Assembly (NCBI GenBank): GCA_002706765.1
Contig: PAJV01000078.1
Coordinates: forward strand, 124,001 to 188,000
Origin: Gimesia sp.
GTDB taxonomy: Bacteria; Planctomycetota; Planctomycetia; Planctomycetales; Planctomycetaceae
Direction of reading: 5' to 3'
DNA: 64,000 nucleotides
Below, piece by piece: positions 45,670-60,107 of the stretch. The translations under genes and the position numbers were made by a program. Under the pieces are notes generated by a model. That model saw only the letters and a program-made list of their open reading frames with translations. It ran no database searches and had not been told where the DNA came from. Positions within the stretch are counted from its first letter, which is position 1; each line of letters opens with the position of its first letter.

Positions 45670-45743
45670 GGGGCCGTAGCTCAATCGGTTAGAGCAGCAA
45701 ACTCATAATTTGTTGGTTACAGGTTCGAGTCCTGTCGGCCCTA
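45670..45743 (+). tRNA. tRNA-Met (CAT anticodon)
   Basis: 74 nt with full cloverleaf pairing: acceptor ggggccg/cggccct (one G:U), D arm gctc/gagc, anticodon stem gcaaa/tttgt (one G:U) with loop ctcataa, and T arm acagg/cctgt with ttcgagt. The CCA end is not encoded. Anticodon CAT can be elongator Met or lysidine-modified Ile; the body looks more like elongator Met. Its 3' end is the integration target of the element to the right. Confidence 0.9.
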
Positions 45744-46972
45744 CTCTTTTGTACAGTATCCTCTCGTATAGGCTCGCAAGTCTCGGATTCGCAATGAGAT
45801 GAATCATCGTTTCTATTTTCCATTTGCGAGCCTATACCAGCCCGATCAGACGAGTACTGCACCGCATTCTGCACCGCTTTTTCAAAGTCCGATTCTCTCA
45901 CTTGCAGATAGCTTTGCATGGCTACTTGAGGCGAATTTCCAAGCCAGGCAACAACCGTCTGGATAGGAAATTGTTCAATCAATTCGGTCTCTCGACTGGA
46001 TCGCAAATTCTGGAACGGTTTAGGCCAGGGTACGAGACCAGCCCGCTTAATGATTTTGTGAAACGTCGTCCGCAAGTTCTCGCTTCTGATACGATGTCGG
46101 GTAATCACATGCTCTGTCCGGTTTTCTGCAGGCTCAAAAAAACACTTTTCAAGATACGGTCTGAGTTCCGGGAAGATCGGCACGATACGTCCCTCTTTGC
46201 CAGCGTATCGCTCTGTTTTAGGACTGGTGACGTAGAACCGGTTTCGATGCCAGTTGATGTCTTCCCAACGCAGAGAAAACGTTTCAGAAGGGGTTCTCAA
46301 TCCACCGTAACGGGCCAGGGCAATGATCAGCTGCCATTCAGCATCGGGACAAGCATCAATAACTTTTTCGGTATCGTCAATAGAAAGGAAATAGTGTCGC
46401 TCTCTTGTAGGGACCAGCGCGGATGGCAAACAGTTGAACGGATTCTTGAAAAGCAATTCCTTATCAATCGCGTAATTGAACATCGTCTTTGAGATGCCTG
46501 ACAGCTTCCGTATGGAGTTTTCAGCCAATCCCCTACCAATCAGGTAGGCACGCCATTCCTTAGCCTCACCCGCATTCAGGGACTTCAGAGGCTTGTCTTT
46601 CCCGAAGTGGTCAATCAGATGTTTTTTGACTACTTTGTATTTTGCCACCGTACGCGGTTTCACGTCACCCGTTCGAAGCTTGATGAAATCGTCAATCAGC
46701 TTGCCCAGGAGGACGACTTCGCGCTGCTCAATCAATCCGACTCGGGCCAACCGGTCTCGCAAAGTATCATCAATCGTTGTCAGCCAGCGGGATGTAACAT
46801 CGTCCAAGGCATGACCGGACATTTTCGAAGAAACCAGGCATTCAACACGGACTTTGGTTGCTTCAGCCGTTTTCATCGTGGCTTTACCGAGACGGATAGA
46901 GCGCCGTTTTTTATCTGAACCAACAAACTGTATTTTTTTACGTCCGTTCGGTTCTTTGGTTATGCTTGCCAT
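45689..46972 (-). CDS. Tyrosine-type site-specific integrase
   Basis: 427 aa. An N-terminal arm and SAM-like domain (about 75-175) precede a catalytic domain with the first Arg in GGLRTPSE (about 221), the second in QNLRSSR (about 321) and the nucleophile in QSYLQV (about 354). The usual histidines of HxxR and LGH are Asn here (QNLR, WLGNS), as is common in planctomycete integrases. The last 19 residues (ADRTRTCNQQIMSLLL end) are the antisense of the tRNA, and the stop lies in its D loop. It is adjacent to attL, so it drives integration and excision of this element. Confidence 0.92.
   Translation of the reverse strand: MASITKEPNGRKKIQFVGSDKKRRSIRLGKATMKTAEATKVRVECLVSSKMSGHALDDVTSRWLTTIDDTLRDRLARVGLIEQREVVLLGKLIDDFIKLRTGDVKPRTVAKYKVVKKHLIDHFGKDKPLKSLNAGEAKEWRAYLIGRGLAENSIRKLSGISKTMFNYAIDKELLFKNPFNCLPSALVPTRERHYFLSIDDTEKVIDACPDAEWQLIIALARYGGLRTPSETFSLRWEDINWHRNRFYVTSPKTERYAGKEGRIVPIFPELRPYLEKCFFEPAENRTEHVITRHRIRSENLRTTFHKIIKRAGLVPWPKPFQNLRSSRETELIEQFPIQTVVAWLGNSPQVAMQSYLQVRESDFEKAVQNAVQYSSDRAGIGSQMENRNDDSSHCESETCEPIREDTVQKSRADRTRTCNQQIMSLLL
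45727..45743 (+). repeat. attL: 17-bp direct repeat in the tRNA 3' end
   Basis: gagtcctgtcggcccta is identical to 60091-60107 and forms the T-arm/acceptor end of the tRNA. This is the standard layout for tyrosine-integrase elements in tRNA genes. Confidence 0.88.
45766..45837. repeat. 14-bp inverted repeat near attL
   Basis: gtataggctcgcaa (45766-45779) and its perfect complement ttgcgagcctatac (45824-45837) flank a 44-nt spacer, inside the integrase 3' coding end. They could be arm-type integrase or excisionase sites. Confidence 0.6.
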
Positions 46973-48929: not shown

Positions 48930-49817
48930 ATGACCAAAAAAGCAGCATCTCGGAACCAGAAAAAAGAAGATCAGGCCGAAACGATAGAAGTTGAACCGCA
49001 AGAGGAACAAGAGAATCCAATCGTATGCGGATTAGTCATGCCCATCTCTGAAATTGATGGTTGCAGTGCAGAACATTGGGTAGAGGTTAGGGACATCATT
49101 GAAGAAGCTTTGGCTGCCATCGATATAAAGACCAGCTTGGTGAGCGATGGTGATGAAGTTGGGATCATTCAAGAAAGAATTGTCCAAAATTTATATGACA
49201 GACCAATCGTGGTTTGTGATGTAAGCTGTAAGAACCCGAATGTAATGTTTGAATTGGGACTCCGGCTGGCTTTCGACATGCCAACGATTATCCTCAAAGA
49301 TGACATGACCAATTATACTTTTGATATCAATATTGTTGAACACCTTGGTTATCCCAGAGATTTGAATTACTGGTCGATACAGAAGTTTAAAAAACTATTG
49401 GCAAAAAAAGTTAAAGCGACATTACAGAAGAAAGATGAAGATGATGAATATTCACCATTCTTGAAAGCTTTCAACAAAAAGCGAGTGGCTGACATAGAAA
49501 CGAAAGATGTAACTTCTGTTGAATTTATCATGGATGAGCTTAAAGACCTAAGTTACAAATTAGATCAACTCAATCGTGTATATTACCCAAGGAAAATTCT
49601 TAATTTTGGAAAATTAGGAGAAGAAGAGCCAGTATCGCTAGCAGACAAAGTGATAGAGGTTGAGATTGCGAACACTATTGTTAAAACAACTGTAGGCAAG
49701 ATATACAAATTAATGCGAGATACTAACTTCAATTTGATAAGAGGTGATGATGATATTTATCACATTGACTTAATCGATAAATCAATCGACAATTCAAAAA
49801 TTATTAATATGCTGTAG
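48930..49817 (+). CDS. NDT-like / TIR-like putative nucleotide hydrolase, candidate defence protein
   Basis: 295 aa. A charged N-terminal stretch (1-30) precedes an NDT-like Rossmann domain (about 31-165), with GLVMPIS, then D97 in VVCDVSCKNPNVMFELG and E108 in FELG. In nucleoside deoxyribosyltransferases and TIR-like NADases the equivalent Asp/Glu drive nucleoside or NAD cleavage (family knowledge). The tail has a short coiled coil (about 200-222) and a unique C-terminal domain. It is convergent with the TIR gene at 49868, suggesting related cargo. Confidence 0.6.
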   Translation: MTKKAASRNQKKEDQAETIEVEPQEEQENPIVCGLVMPISEIDGCSAEHWVEVRDIIEEALAAIDIKTSLVSDGDEVGIIQERIVQNLYDRPIVVCDVSCKNPNVMFELGLRLAFDMPTIILKDDMTNYTFDINIVEHLGYPRDLNYWSIQKFKKLLAKKVKATLQKKDEDDEYSPFLKAFNKKRVADIETKDVTSVEFIMDELKDLSYKLDQLNRVYYPRKILNFGKLGEEEPVSLADKVIEVEIANTIVKTTVGKIYKLMRDTNFNLIRGDDDIYHIDLIDKSIDNSKIINML

Positions 49818-49867: not shown

Positions 49868-51052
49868 TCACAGTTTCGATTTTGGTTCCGGCTCACGCCC
49901 GGTGTTGTTCGTCTGTAAGGCCTTCACTACCCGCTTCAGCTGCTGTTCGAACTTCGCATTGTCAGACTCCCATCCCGTGAAATCCGGGGCCATGCGTTCG
50001 ACAACCTGATTCTTGTTCGGATGGTTCCAGCCAGAAAAAAGGTATCCGTCCAGGTTCAACGGAATCAGAGACAGTACCTCATGCTCTCTGTCTTTGAACA
50101 ACTGCTTTTCCTTGGCAAAAGCGTGTTTGAGTTCGTCGTTTACCCAGCCGCTCGTGAGGGAATGCTCGGACGCGCACAGCAGAACTTTGTCCCAGACTCG
50201 GATACCGTGATCAATCCGATCATAGATGTTGTCTCCAGGAAGAATTTGGTGTTCGTCAAGCCAGCAGCGAATCCCTTTTCCTTGCAACGCATCGTGTAGA
50301 CGGCGCGCGAACAATTTATCTTCATGGCTGTAACTGATAAAGCAGGAATAAAAATCGATTGCAGAACCCGAAAAATGGTCGGTGATGTACAATATAAAAT
50401 CATCTGAAAGCCCACAGCCCCGAAGGAATACTTCAGGGATTTTCCCGCTAGAGCTTTCTATAGTTTGAAAATCGATTGAGCTAGGACCCTCATGCTGAAT
50501 CTTTTCAAGTCCTTGCGCTTCTGACAAATCTACATTGTGCCAAGTGGTATGATATAGGTTTGTATTCTCCAAATTAGCATTCTTTAGTGAAGCATTTAGA
50601 AAAAATGAATGTGCTAAGTTTGAGTTACTTAGATCTGCATTCACAAGCTCAGAAAATCGCAATAAAGCAGCAAAAAAACTACTTTCAGTCAATTTGGCAT
50701 TTTGAAAGTTAGTGCCGAGCAAGTTCGCACTACCAAAGTGAGTTTTGTTTATGATGGTATTACGTAAATTGGCATGGCTCAAATCTGCATTTTGAAAATT
50801 TGAACATTTAACAGCTGCACCTTCTAAATCTGACCATCTCATTTGAGTGTTGCAAAGAGAAGAATTGCTCAAATTGATGTTTTTAAAATCCACTTTTTCT
50901 AAATTTGCACCATCCAAGTTGATACCAGTAAGGTCAATCCCAGTTAGTTTCACATTTGATAAGTCTGGAGAGATATCTGGATTTGTTCTTCGCCATTTGT
51001 TGAATGCATCTGCACCTTGCTTTATTATCTCAACATGATCAGGGTTTGCCAC
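49868..51052 (-). CDS. Pentapeptide-repeat/TIR-domain protein, candidate defence effector
   Basis: 394 aa. The N-terminal half (about 30-180) is a pentapeptide-repeat helix (A(N/D)LxxxNF-type units: GANLEKVDF, NADLSHANL, NANLENTNL). The C-terminal TIR domain (about 232-390) starts DFYSCFISYSHEDK. The catalytic glutamate of NAD-cleaving TIRs is E307 in GWVNDELKHAF. The start is GTG with AGGAG upstream. Bacterial TIR proteins often hydrolyse NAD+ upon phage infection; sensing by the pentapeptide-repeat part is an inference. It lies downstream of a ParB-related block. Confidence 0.85.
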   Translation of the reverse strand: MANPDHVEIIKQGADAFNKWRRTNPDISPDLSNVKLTGIDLTGINLDGANLEKVDFKNINLSNSSLCNTQMRWSDLEGAAVKCSNFQNADLSHANLRNTIINKTHFGSANLLGTNFQNAKLTESSFFAALLRFSELVNADLSNSNLAHSFFLNASLKNANLENTNLYHTTWHNVDLSEAQGLEKIQHEGPSSIDFQTIESSSGKIPEVFLRGCGLSDDFILYITDHFSGSAIDFYSCFISYSHEDKLFARRLHDALQGKGIRCWLDEHQILPGDNIYDRIDHGIRVWDKVLLCASEHSLTSGWVNDELKHAFAKEKQLFKDREHEVLSLIPLNLDGYLFSGWNHPNKNQVVERMAPDFTGWESDNAKFEQQLKRVVKALQTNNTGREPEPKSKL

Positions 51053-51973: not shown

Positions 51974-52429
51974 TTACGGGTCGTACTCCCACTGGTACGG
52001 CGAAAACTTGAACGGCTCGTATTCGGTCAGACCAACGGCAACGGCTTCCCGTCGTCCCGCAACCAACTCACGTTCCCGGAGCCGCTCCTGTTTGATGGAT
52101 TCCAGAACCTGGGCTTCATGGAGTTTCACTTCGGTTGACCGATCACGGTGTCTGTTGCACTCAATCAGGGCTTCCTGAATCGACCATTCGTCGTCCAGGT
52201 CCATACGCACAATCACATGGTCTTCAATGATGCCTACTTCCCGGGCTGCCTGGTAGCGACGGTGACCGTCAACGATGATCAGGTCTTGTGTAACCTGAAT
52301 CGGACAGATAATCCCGTGTTGTCTCACAGATGCAATGAATCTACGGTCGAGGTCGTACCCATATAGGGTAATACTCAGAGGATGGCTAGTCAGCTTGTCC
52401 AGGCGAACGTGATTGAGAATGTAATTCAT
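51974..52429 (-). CDS. ParB-like nuclease-domain protein (short)
   Basis: 151 aa from M at 52429 (an upstream in-frame M gives an unlikely hydrophobic leader). The ParB-N fold is marked by HVRLDKLTSHP, QHGIICPIQVTQDLIIVDGHRRYQAAREVG, with the DGHRR motif typical of the CTP-binding ParB domain. It is shorter than chromosomal ParB and lacks an obvious helix-turn-helix or dimer domain, so it may be a solo or truncated ParB. It lies downstream of the ParB/TopoVI-A fusion on the same strand. Confidence 0.75.
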   Translation of the reverse strand: MNYILNHVRLDKLTSHPLSITLYGYDLDRRFIASVRQHGIICPIQVTQDLIIVDGHRRYQAAREVGIIEDHVIVRMDLDDEWSIQEALIECNRHRDRSTEVKLHEAQVLESIKQERLRERELVAGRREAVAVGLTEYEPFKFSPYQWEYDP

Positions 52430-52697
52430 AAAACCCCTGCTGATTTGTTCGATGAATGTGAAAACGAGGACGCCGATTGTGAACCCCCTCAGAAACCAAC
52501 CGGCGTCACTCGTTTCACTGATACTGATAGGCATGAAAACTGGCTATATGCAGCCCAGGTATCGGGCTAATATTGGTCATTCGCAGTGTTCGAAAAAAGA
52601 AGGAAAGACACACACAAAACGCGACAGTTCACTATGGTGTCAGGCTTTGCAAATCGGGAAAAAGGACCCCGTTAAAATAGGTAAGATAGTGTCGGGG

Positions 52698-54089
52698 CTA
52701 ACACGCCAGGAAATTCCTGTCCGCAATGGTGGATTGCACAACTTTTCTTAGTGCCATGATTTTGCTGGCGTCTTCCTTTTCCTGTGCCAGCTCGCGATTG
52801 AACAGATCGGTATCAATCACGTTGTCGATGGCATCAGTCAGTACGTCGATCAACTGACTGGGCTGCAGGGCTTCCACTTCGAAAACATCGTCTCCATACT
52901 TTGAGACAAACTTTTCATATTGAGACGATCCCCGCTTCGCCTTCATGTCTGGACTTGGCACCAGGTCAAACTGTTCAACGTGATCTGCAGTCAGGGCAAC
53001 CTTGATAGGATGGATGTTCTCCACGTCGAATTCATCACGCATCGAACGGGCAAAACTTTGAGCAATCTCCTCCCCGTCTGGGTCAAAGTCACTGACGATC
53101 AGAACGACCAGTCGATTCTTCCCACTCCGCAGATACCGTTGCCGCATCCCCTCACGAGGGGAAACGCTGCAGTACCCTCTCCCTGTCACTGTGGGGATGC
53201 AATACCGTTCAGCCACTCGATTTACAATAGATTGAATGGTGTTCTTCTCAGCAAGAATTTCGATATGGTCAGGCTGTGACTGCATCAGGTCGCGCCAGTA
53301 CCCGCACAGCAACCGATCCAGCTGATCTGCAACGAAGTCCTGAGGGCCGTTGTAGGTCTGCCAGCAGGAGACTGGACGGGTAGAATCAGCAATCGCTTCC
53401 ATCGAAATAGAACCATCCAACCTGGCACGTGTGGTGAGGTCGATCAGGTTTTTGTAGCTGGATGCGTCATTCTTATAAACGGAATTCGGCTTGCTGGCAT
53501 GCTTCAACGGTGGGTCATTTAATAGGGCATAATGAATCTGGCGAACGCTCAACGGCAGATGTTCGCGCCTTTCATGAATCACCTTCTGCACAGCATCCAG
53601 GAATAGCCGCTTGGCACGTGTGATGCGGGAACGTGTCTTTTGCCCCAGTATTTTGAACGGTTCTAAAATATCATTCGTTTTTTCCCGTTCTTCGATCAGA
53701 GACTGATAAGCGGTTTCGGGGTTCTGCCTGGCAATCTCCTCGCGAACCTCTTCATCAAACGTTTTCTTGCGTTGGATGTTGTGTTCTGCCAGACGGGCCG
53801 TAAACGCTTCGATGTCGTCCTCCCGTCGAATATCCGACATGATAGCCGGAATCTCTGTCAGGCCAGCCAAACGCGCCGCACAGTGTCGCCTGTGTCCTGA
53901 TTCAATGAAACCATCAGCAGTATAGATGATTGGAGTCAGAACGCCCTGATTTAAAATGGAACGGGCAAGTTTGATGATGGCGGGATCTTTGGGGTTTGCA
54001 GGATGGTATATCCTGTCATTTTCTGGACTCGGCTTAACGGAGTCGATGCTAATGAAATGGCACTTTTCTGATTTTGGGTCATGATCCAA
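52698..54089 (-). CDS. ParB domain fused to Spo11/topoisomerase VI-A-like domain
   Basis: 463 aa. ParB-N spans about 10-110 (FIESGHRRHCAARLAG, with helix-turn-helix-like region to 140). From about 150 the sequence fits a Spo11/TopoVI-A-type protein: SVRQIHY with candidate catalytic tyrosine Y187, then a Toprim domain with E281 (ILAEKNTI), TGRGYCS and D334-F-D-P-D-G. The start is TTG at 54089; an inverted repeat atgatc/gatcat (54081-54099) spans it. The likely role is DNA cleavage or strand passage targeted by ParB for replication or maintenance of the element (inference). Mini-A-type proteins from mobile elements are the closest known idea. Confidence 0.8.
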   Translation of the reverse strand: MDHDPKSEKCHFISIDSVKPSPENDRIYHPANPKDPAIIKLARSILNQGVLTPIIYTADGFIESGHRRHCAARLAGLTEIPAIMSDIRREDDIEAFTARLAEHNIQRKKTFDEEVREEIARQNPETAYQSLIEEREKTNDILEPFKILGQKTRSRITRAKRLFLDAVQKVIHERREHLPLSVRQIHYALLNDPPLKHASKPNSVYKNDASSYKNLIDLTTRARLDGSISMEAIADSTRPVSCWQTYNGPQDFVADQLDRLLCGYWRDLMQSQPDHIEILAEKNTIQSIVNRVAERYCIPTVTGRGYCSVSPREGMRQRYLRSGKNRLVVLIVSDFDPDGEEIAQSFARSMRDEFDVENIHPIKVALTADHVEQFDLVPSPDMKAKRGSSQYEKFVSKYGDDVFEVEALQPSQLIDVLTDAIDNVIDTDLFNRELAQEKEDASKIMALRKVVQSTIADRNFLAC

Positions 54090-54152
54090 AATTGATCATC
54101 CTTGATAATAGAGGGTTTCAGTAGAAGCGGGAACTTTGCCAACCAGCCCCGA

Positions 54153-54357
54153 TGCCGACCACTGAGTCAACAACCACAATAGTCTCAGTGGTCGGCAGAG
54201 GATTAAAAAAGCAGATGGTTGATTGACCACCGACGCCGACGACTGGGGGGAGAACCTGAAATCCCCAGTCGTCGGCCAGCCTCACAGTTTGAATGTTGAT
54301 GTTTCAATAACAGGGATCGGCTGGCAATCTGGAGTGGCATGCTCCTCAGCCGATCCC
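54153..54357. repeat. Three long-stem hairpins upstream of the ParB fusion
   Basis: Hairpin 1: gccgaccactgag (54154-54166) with 54184-54196, 13-14 bp, loop 17. Hairpin 2: gccgacgactgggg (54235-54248) with 54263-54276, 14 bp, loop 14. Hairpin 3: gggatcggctg (54313-54323) with 54347-54357, 11 bp. Hairpins 1 and 2 are related; their differences at stem positions 7 and 12 are compensatory, which indicates selection for pairing. Possible cleavage, centromere or regulatory RNA sites. Confidence 0.7.
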
Positions 54358-54371
54358 CGGAAACGCGGTTT

Positions 54372-54926
54372 CTATGTGGCCAGGCACTGCTTTCTCAGTC
54401 TGTCCATTCCGGCAACCAATGCAGCCCGATCCCCCCCTTTTAGATAGTCGGTCTGCCGATAATTCCCCTCCATGTGAATCAATTTCAGAGCCTCTGGGTG
54501 GCATCGGTAGATGTTATTGACTTGGTTGACGTGTCCCGGATGTAACTCCTCTTCGACGTAACCGAGTTTTGTCAGTTCTTCGCGAATCCTCAATCGCCAT
54601 GTGTCCAGCTCGTCAACGATACCTCGATATCTTGCCTTATGGTCTGCAGCATGAAGACTGGAAAATTCTTTCACCTTGTCGCAAAGTTCAATAGCCTTGC
54701 CGTACAAATCGAAACGGTAAGTGTTGCTGGCTGGACCTTCAAAGAGGTCCTTTGACGAAATCGACTCGATGTTCCCAGACTCAACCCGAGCCCTGGCAGC
54801 TTCGTGAGTGTCAACTTTTTTATTGTGAGAGGCAATCTCTTTCACCAGTGGTGCCAACGCTTTTTTTGTTTCGTCTGAATAAAAGTCGCGTTCGGCTGGA
54901 ACATGGATCTTAAGACTCTGGCTCAT
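54372..54926 (-). CDS. Unrecognised protein of the element
   Basis: 184 aa, helix-rich and charged (e.g. LKIHVPAERDFYSDETKKALAPLVKEIASHNKKVDTHEA in parts, KYRGIVDELDTWRLRIREELTKLG). No domain is recognised. The start is preceded by GGGGAA. It is directly upstream of the hairpin array and the ParB fusion, so it may be part of that maintenance module. Confidence 0.7.
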   Translation of the reverse strand: MSQSLKIHVPAERDFYSDETKKALAPLVKEIASHNKKVDTHEAARARVESGNIESISSKDLFEGPASNTYRFDLYGKAIELCDKVKEFSSLHAADHKARYRGIVDELDTWRLRIREELTKLGYVEEELHPGHVNQVNNIYRCHPEALKLIHMEGNYRQTDYLKGGDRAALVAGMDRLRKQCLAT

Positions 54927-55927: not shown

Positions 55928-56155
55928 CTAGATACCAGCTGGACTGGTTATCAGCGGCGTTGATTGTGAATCAATGAAGCGGTCAATTTCTTTTCGTGCA
56001 TAGCGAACGGCAGCACCAAGCTTGACACAACGGATTTTACCCTCTTCTCGCATCTTCCAGAGGGTACGCTCGCAACACCCAAGCAGGCGAGCAGCTTCTT
56101 TGCTGTCAACAAGGACAGGGGGCTCCTGTGCAGAATGAGCCGAATTTTCGATCAT
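55928..56155 (-). CDS. Excisionase/MerR-like helix-turn-helix protein
   Basis: 75 aa. The pattern SKEAARLLGCCERTLWKMREEGKIRCVKLGAAVRYARKEIDRFI is the classic excisionase/AlpA-type winged helix (split here: residues about 18-61). AGGAGG lies 5 nt before the ATG. It likely controls integrase direction or early genes of this element. Confidence 0.85.
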   Translation of the reverse strand: MIENSAHSAQEPPVLVDSKEAARLLGCCERTLWKMREEGKIRCVKLGAAVRYARKEIDRFIDSQSTPLITSPAGI

Positions 56156-59702: not shown

Positions 59703-59939
59703 TCACTCCCGCTGAAACTTCAGCAGTTCACCCCGCTGGGCTGCCTCGATTCTCCGGGCAGCAATCTCGCAGTATTCCTCGGACGCTCCAAACCCGATAG
59801 CTCCCCAGCTTTCTAAGACCGATGCAACCAGCGTCGTTTCCGATCCACAGAACGGATCGAAGGCCAGCCCGCCAGCAGGAACGCACTGTACCAGGCGTTG
59901 CAACAACGGCGTTGGTTTGCCGGTCATGTGGTGCTTGTC
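59703..59939 (-). pseudogene. C-terminal remnant of an N4/N6-type DNA methyltransferase
   Basis: The 78-residue frame (from a stop at 59945) reads KHHMTGKPTPLLQRLVQCVP then LAFDPFCGSETTLVASVL, matching the C-terminal SAM-binding part of N4/N6 methyltransferases (GKPxxLL and DPFCGSGTT, here GSETT). The whole N-terminal half, including the DPPY catalytic motif, is missing. Probably debris of an older island. Confidence 0.75.
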
Positions 59940-60090: not shown

Positions 60091-60107
60091 GAGTCCTGTC
60101 GGCCCTA
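60091..60107 (+). repeat. attR: 17-bp direct repeat
   Basis: Same 17 bp as 45727-45743, not part of a tRNA here. It marks the right end of the 14.4-kb element. Confidence 0.88.

Follow-up and report, generated by a model that had tools for sequence, protein, structure and literature searches.

Mini-A, a type IIB topoisomerase-like protein (Takahashi et al. 2020), is cited in passages of PMC7614492 and PMC8185306, and a review passage describes the Mini-A proteins as truncated homologues of Top6A. In a passage of a 2021 review, neither a Topo VIII nor a Mini-A of archaea is counted as characterised. Here, we analysed a gene that joins a Mini-A-like module to a ParB-type domain in a 64,000-nucleotide stretch of DNA from Gimesia sp., which, as a whole, is called the window in the following.

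The encoded protein shares with Mini-A the invariant Tyr, Glu, DxD and PG motifs and the match to phrog_6247, it aligns with an archaeal-plasmid protein deposited as 'Topo Mini-A', and it is likewise carried by mobile elements or viruses, as indicated by attachment repeats, an integrase, a prophage-like region and viral contigs. In contrast to Mini-A, its module follows a ParB_N domain at the N-terminus, and the fusions form a separate clade. The original Mini-A paper reportedly contains a C-terminal subfamily motif. With Topo VI-A and Spo11, the fusion has an alignable Toprim part in common, for which the support is moderate. However, it differs from them by its ParB domain, and a topo VI-B partner, that is, a B-type (GHKL) protein, was not present among the 50 proteins that were scanned with Pfam, so classical strand passage is doubtful. 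With the N-terminal CTP-binding domain of ParB, Noc and KorB, it shares both fold and sequence, whereas the Mini-A module replaces their usual C-terminal parts. Phage ParB-methyltransferase fusions (phrog_498) also combine ParB_N with a DNA-acting enzyme on mobile elements, but that enzyme is a methyltransferase, whereas the window fusion contains a putative tyrosine DNA-cleaving module. No title or abstract beginning in the literature searched names the fusion, topoisomerase VI and Spo11 gave no hit when looked for within PMC5512222 and PMC12839542, and a mention in Takahashi et al. (2020) is possible.

A ParB_N domain is fused to a conserved Mini-A-like module

The fusion gene (52,698–54,089, minus strand) encodes 463 amino acids, and its only start codon is TTG. 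The ParB_N domain comprises residues 11–91 (53,817–54,059, minus strand) and was detected by Pfam above the gathering score (E 3.3e-8). The motifs of this region are SGHRRH (residues 64–69) and, just past the domain, HNIQR (103–107). The Mini-A module, which is Topo VI-A/Spo11-like, comprises residues ~156–463 (52,701–53,624, minus strand). It is composed of a winged-helix-like part with the presumed catalytic Tyr187 (codon at 53,529–53,531, minus strand) and a Toprim part with E281, D334 and D336. The topoisomerase models of Pfam did not match the protein; in PHROGs, residues 164–452 matched phrog_6247, annotated as 'DNA topoisomerase' (E 1.5e-38), and this family was matched by all 27 aligned fusion proteins.

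A preliminary description, made from the sequence alone, had proposed a ParB domain joined to a Spo11/Topo VI-A-like domain at this gene, and the Pfam match, the PHROGs match and the conservation agree with it. The order of ParB-N, tyrosine motif and Toprim was read correctly, with the exception of TGRGY (302–306), which had been listed last and in fact lies between E281 and DFDPDG. A search for the same fusion in other islands, which had been suggested as well, revealed 31 further loci with ParB_N plus Mini-A. The architecture is thus well supported by sequence, profiles, a structure model and these 31 loci, and the occurrence of the same fusion in independent genomes rules out a chance or assembly join.

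To describe residue conservation, the window protein was aligned with 26 of the 28 fusions from the contig scans, and the broken copies at L058 and L068 were omitted. R183, Y187, E281, K282, D334, D336, P337 and G339 were invariant in all 27 sequences, including Y187, E281 and D334, the three residues that had been named as key residues beforehand. Y187, E281, D334 and D336 were also invariant in a set of four sequences (the window, L031, L032 and L033) and in a set of 14 sequences that included stand-alone proteins. The most diverse set contained 22 sequences, namely five fusions, nine stand-alone proteins that the phylum search had returned and eight phage or plasmid proteins, one of which is the 'Topo Mini-A' of an archaeal plasmid; L007, L014 and L022 were omitted. 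The invariant columns of this set were R183, Y187, Y212, R223, D235, R238, E281, K282, G305, S308, D334, D336, P337, G339 and E404. Accordingly, the RxxxY motif of the winged-helix part (R183/Y187) is invariant also across phage and archaeal Mini-A proteins.

When the 22 Mini-A domains were compared with Pfam, TOP6A-Spo11_Toprim was matched by one (E 0.0092), DUF2399 by six (best E 1.6e-4) and DUF7281 by three (best E 0.0099). A Mini-A profile that was built from the 22 sequences and searched against the PDB sequences at E values up to 10 retrieved a single chain, the topo VI-A structure 1d3y (E 0.36), and the alignment paired TLREAYY and DGDPYG with the motifs of the Mini-A family. Using hhalign with ten bacterial topo VI-A proteins, the Toprim part was aligned with an E value of 7e-5 and a probability of 63%; the counterpart of E281 was the topo VI Glu, and that of DFDPDG was DGDPYG. 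AlphaFold2 models were generated for the whole fusion from 27 sequences (pLDDT 83.5) and for the Mini-A domain alone from 26 sequences (pLDDT 91.6). For residues 150–400, a 5Y-CAP or Toprim fold had been expected, and the strands and helices of the domain model indeed follow the Toprim order, beta-alpha-beta-alpha-beta-alpha-beta; E281 lies just after strand 1 and DFDPDG just after strand 3. The structural matches to topo VI-A were weak: in Foldseek, the whole model had ParB, KorB and Noc as its leading hits, with topo VI-A following at rank 28 (E 0.012), while the Mini-A domain retrieved topo VI-A at rank 1, with an E value of 0.043. By fold alone, the relation to topo VI-A is modest; together with the motifs and profiles, it is convincing.

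The N-terminal part had its best fold relatives in ParB, Noc and KorB (Foldseek, E about 1e-4). R68, N104 and R107 are present in all 27 fusions, and Q106 is present in 26, whereas the Glu of the ParB motif GERR is replaced by His66 without exception, resulting in GHRR. Four of five aligned ParB chains contain GERR; the fifth, 7o0n, is the E93A mutant of Myxococcus ParB (GARR) and has Ala at the position equivalent to His66. This mutant is said to be impaired in CTP hydrolysis. Because of the replacement of Glu by His66, ParB-like CTP clamping cannot be assumed for the fusions, and any nucleotide use would be presumptive.

Distribution and phylogeny of the fusion

In total, 32 fusion loci were found, four in genomes of the phylum, 24 in genome contigs and four in viral contigs. 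The four full-length fusions among 392 genomes of the phylum belong to the window's genome, two genomes of the same genus and one of the same class, and the other phylum matches, among those listed, were limited to one of the two parts, either Mini-A or ParB. A close-relative scan of genome and viral contigs with the single protein yielded no match, and the contig loci were obtained by scanning with the four-sequence alignment. In the genome contigs, 26 loci were confirmed, 24 of which matched both domains; three of these fusions are damaged (L058 is split between frames, L068 is broken and the end of L062 has diverged). In the viral contigs, 65 loci were confirmed, and four were fusions (L071–L074). 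The window fusion was covered to 80% by none of the 59 matched phage records and none of the 36 matched plasmid records, and with the G339 fusion as query, the same was true for 60 phage records. The contig titles mostly named Planctomycetota, with single cases of Verrucomicrobia, Akkermansia and Deltaproteobacteria; the latter labels may be wrong because all of them are metagenome bins. The fusion is conserved, and the loci found here, which mostly come from planctomycetes, comprise integrated elements, a prophage-like region and viral contigs.

A tree was calculated for 46 Mini-A domains, including 29 fusions (L058, L062 and L068 were omitted). The 29 fusions formed a single clade with a support of 100/100, and the stand-alone phylum proteins L005 and L006 were nearest to it (98/89). 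To judge from the sequences, this clade is in line with one fusion event. Within it, L064, L067, L073, L074 and L033 make up one clade in which, by eye, ParB_N is preceded by an additional helix-turn-helix-like segment. Two apparent decayed copies were also noticed, a Mini-A gene interrupted by four in-frame stops (L007, 1501–2460, in G122) and a short fusion-like remnant (L022, 1501–1650, in G087). Topo VI itself seems to be common in the phylum, as TP6A_N, a topo VI-A family, was matched in 188 of the 392 genomes, 187 of them above the cut-off; the window's own genome had no TP6A_N match.

The fusion gene resides in an integrated element

The fusion gene is part of an element of about 14.4 kb that is integrated at a tRNA-Met gene (45,670–45,744, plus strand). 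The element is bounded by two identical attachment repeats of 17 bp, the left one inside the tRNA-Met gene (45,727–45,743) and the right one at 60,091–60,107. It encodes its own tyrosine integrase at the tRNA-Met gene (45,689–46,972, minus strand; Pfam Phage_integrase, 3.4e-11), an excisionase-like HTH_17 protein (55,928–56,155, minus strand; Pfam 1.6e-13) and a 184-aa backbone protein (54,372–54,926, minus strand), for which no family was found in Pfam or PADLOC and which has 72–79% identical copies in two sister elements. Directly downstream of the fusion, a separate ParB_N protein of 186 aa is encoded (51,974–52,534, minus strand; Pfam 1e-6), and a copy with 84% identity is present in the sister element E1. 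The pentapeptide-repeat/TIR gene (49,868–51,052, minus strand; Pfam TIR_2 3e-23 and Pentapeptide 3.8e-29, plus PADLOC matches) is, by its family matches, likely defence cargo of the element. The same is likely for a second protein (48,930–49,817) with a PADLOC TIR-effector match. At the right end, a short fragment was observed that corresponds to the C-terminus of an N6/N4 DNA methylase (59,703–59,927).

Genome G385 contains the 17-bp repeat three times at one tRNA-Met site (L039 11902, L032 5917 and L040 1656), bounding two tandem elements of about 14.0 and 15.2 kb. The first, E1, has the window-type backbone and a 97% identical integrase, and the second, E2, carries a fusion that is 55% identical to that of the window and lies beside three genes that, read by eye, resemble a type I restriction system. 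In G389, an integrase gene (Pfam 3.2e-7) lies beside a tRNA-Lys gene, a partial repeat of which follows ~31.7 kb further on; the fusion is located between the two and adjoins a Prim-Pol gene. In G339, the fusion is located in a prophage-like region (terminase-like genes by eye) together with a Prim-Pol/D5 gene and, close to the fusion, a gene for ParB_N plus N6_N4_Mtase (Pfam). A tyrosine-integrase-type gene, recognised by family match or blastp cluster, was present in the fetched stretch of 19 of the 32 loci.

Wadjet JetD is a Topo VI-A-related nuclease, and by loose analogy the fusion might be an interference nuclease that cuts competing elements or phage DNA and uses its ParB part as a sensor. 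The defence-type TIR-pentapeptide gene of the element and the restriction-like genes beside the G385 relative would fit. However, no PADLOC family matched the Mini-A part, and only a methyltransferase model matched residues 30–113. In addition, the prophage-like region and viral contigs contain fusions as well, some of which adjoin replication genes. We regard an interference function as quite improbable.

A ParB-like protein occupies the slot of the fusion in sister elements

The window's element shares a backbone with two elements of G385, E1 and E3 (at L150). This backbone includes the 184-aa gene, a 95–103-aa gene, the TIR-pentapeptide gene and a 367-aa gene. E3 has a different integrase, which adjoins a tRNA-Thr gene. 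The slot downstream of the 184-aa gene contains the fusion in the window and a ParB-like protein (389–434 aa) in E1 (L039, 18813–19982; phrog_4715, E 1.8e-11), in which a helix-turn-helix is merely hinted at (Pfam E 0.087). The slot of E3 contains a relative with 86% identity, which lies in more than one frame (L150, 10746–11861). These sequences suggest that the element depends in some way on a ParB-type function in this slot, and the job that is common to the slot proteins may be DNA binding or regulation, not cleavage.

Two further explanations draw on this replacement. The fusion could mainly be a KorB-like regulator, with ParB_N controlling element genes and Mini-A acting as a structural or dimerisation platform. 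Replacement by a phrog_4715-type protein and the helix-turn-helix-like N-terminal segment of some fusions argue for it, but the catalytic residues are all invariant, both in the 27 fusions and in the 22 diverse Mini-A sequences, and a regulator of this type appears very improbable to us. Alternatively, the fusion could be a segregation or resolution factor, with ParB_N serving in partition or centromere binding and Mini-A unlinking or cutting dimers or catenanes after replication. This explanation, which we consider unlikely, would account for the N-terminal part being closest in fold to ParB, Noc and KorB, for the other ParB-family protein in the slots of E1 and E3 and for the further ParB_N gene directly downstream. 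It is at odds with the lack of a ParA/ParM-type gene among ten element genes scanned and of any visible ATPase partner for strand passage, and integrated elements need partition only when they are excised.

Many fusion loci have replication-type neighbours

A locus was scored positive when a nearby gene matched a primase, helicase or replication initiator in Pfam or PHROGs, or belonged to a blastp cluster with such a gene. This was the case for 17 of the 32 fusion loci, four of them on weak evidence, and the figure is descriptive. Family matches were found at 13 loci: Prim-Pol at L031, L033, L047, L051, L057, L059, L060 and L074, a primase zinc ribbon at L054, a zinc ribbon together with DnaB and an initiator-like gene at L066, an AAA_25/DnaB-like gene at L061, a polymerase/primase-like gene at L067 (PHROGs only), and DUF3987 alone at L053. 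DUF3987 is listed as 'unknown function' in Pfam and is, we assume, linked to primase-helicases. The weak cases were L045, L058 and L072, with Pfam scores below the cut-off, and L052, which was assigned by its blastp cluster alone, without a Pfam or PHROGs match. At 15 loci, no recognised replication gene was found nearby among neighbours that were profile-scanned in part (the window, E2 of G385, L046, L048, L049, L050, L055, L056, L062, L063, L064, L065, L068, L071 and L073); L046 and L048 lie at contig ends, and L062 and L068 are damaged. Thus, the window's own element did not reveal a primase, helicase or replication-like gene. At nine loci (L046, L047, L048, L053, L057, L059, L064, L066 and L071), the fusion stop overlaps the next start by four bases, which is operon-like. 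In regions with stand-alone Mini-A genes, phage polymerase, primase or helicase genes were nearby in five of eight cases, and no annotated replication gene was nearby in the other three.

Our preferred reading, which we put forward tentatively and with somewhat less than even confidence, is that the fusion performs ParB-positioned transient DNA cleavage that serves replication or maintenance of the element. The fusion would be an element-encoded DNA-cleaving enzyme of type IIB (Topo VI-A/Spo11-like, Mini-A) that is positioned by its own ParB-type domain. ParB_N, probably as a dimer, would grip or recognise element DNA near the replication region. Two Mini-A modules would then pair, and Tyr187, activated by Mg2+ at E281/D334/D336, would attack the backbone and make a transient 5'-phosphotyrosyl break, to be resealed or left open. 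The break might relax or open the DNA for the products of the primase/helicase genes that often adjoin, or, alternatively, might unlink copies once the element has been excised and replicated; the exact step is our conjecture.

The preferred reading is supported by the invariance of the catalytic residues in 27 of 27 fusions, by the replication-type neighbours of the fusions and of five of the eight stand-alone Mini-A genes, by the four-base overlaps, and by the attachment repeats, the element's own integrase and the slot swap with a ParB-family protein. It is weakened by the 15 of 32 loci without a recognised replication gene nearby, by the three stand-alone Mini-A regions of the same kind, by the lack of a B-type partner among the 50 proteins scanned, by His66, by the weak fold matches to topo VI-A and by the upstream hairpins, which are not shared across the family (see below). 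That the fusion serves the element's own DNA, be it in replication, segregation or resolution, is indicated only indirectly, by the neighbours at 17 of 32 loci and the slot swap in two elements. A bolder version would make the fusion a self-targeting, Spo11-like replication initiator: once the ParB part has found the origin, the Mini-A part would break the DNA at this site with a tyrosine linkage, and the break would pass to the primase-polymerase and helicase encoded nearby. We judge this version rather improbable; if true, it would be an initiator of integrative elements that is unrelated to the HUH, Rep or DnaA types.

Present at 32 loci and often adjoining primase and helicase genes, the ParB fusion is a testable clue that a DNA-gripping domain may direct the cleavage by Mini-A and that this cleavage may be tied to the upkeep of element DNA. 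The fusion may represent a new way for mobile elements to handle their own DNA, and the Spo11-type cleavage core could be studied in it as a compact bacterial model.

Hairpins upstream of the fusion gene

The intergenic region upstream of the fusion gene (54,093–54,371, minus strand) contains three hairpins with perfect stems of 14, 14 and 11 bp. The 279-base region folded far better than shuffled sequences, with z values of -5.7 as single-stranded DNA and -4.9 as RNA, and Rfam had no match to it up to E 1. The half-site GCCGACSACTGRG occurs in exactly four copies in the window, all of them in this region. In E1, which has no fusion at this position, the stems are kept by paired base changes, some of them imperfectly; one exact inverted half-site pair is present, and the second hairpin has diverged. 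As a feature of the fusion family, the hairpins were not retrieved, with z values below -3 at 5 of 30 fusion loci versus 6 of 100 control regions. The hairpins had been considered as the fusion's own target, and this idea was weakened by E1, which keeps the stems with a different slot protein, and further by the inconsistent structure at other fusion loci. For both reasons, we assign the hairpins to the backbone of the element, in which they may be an origin or a regulatory site.
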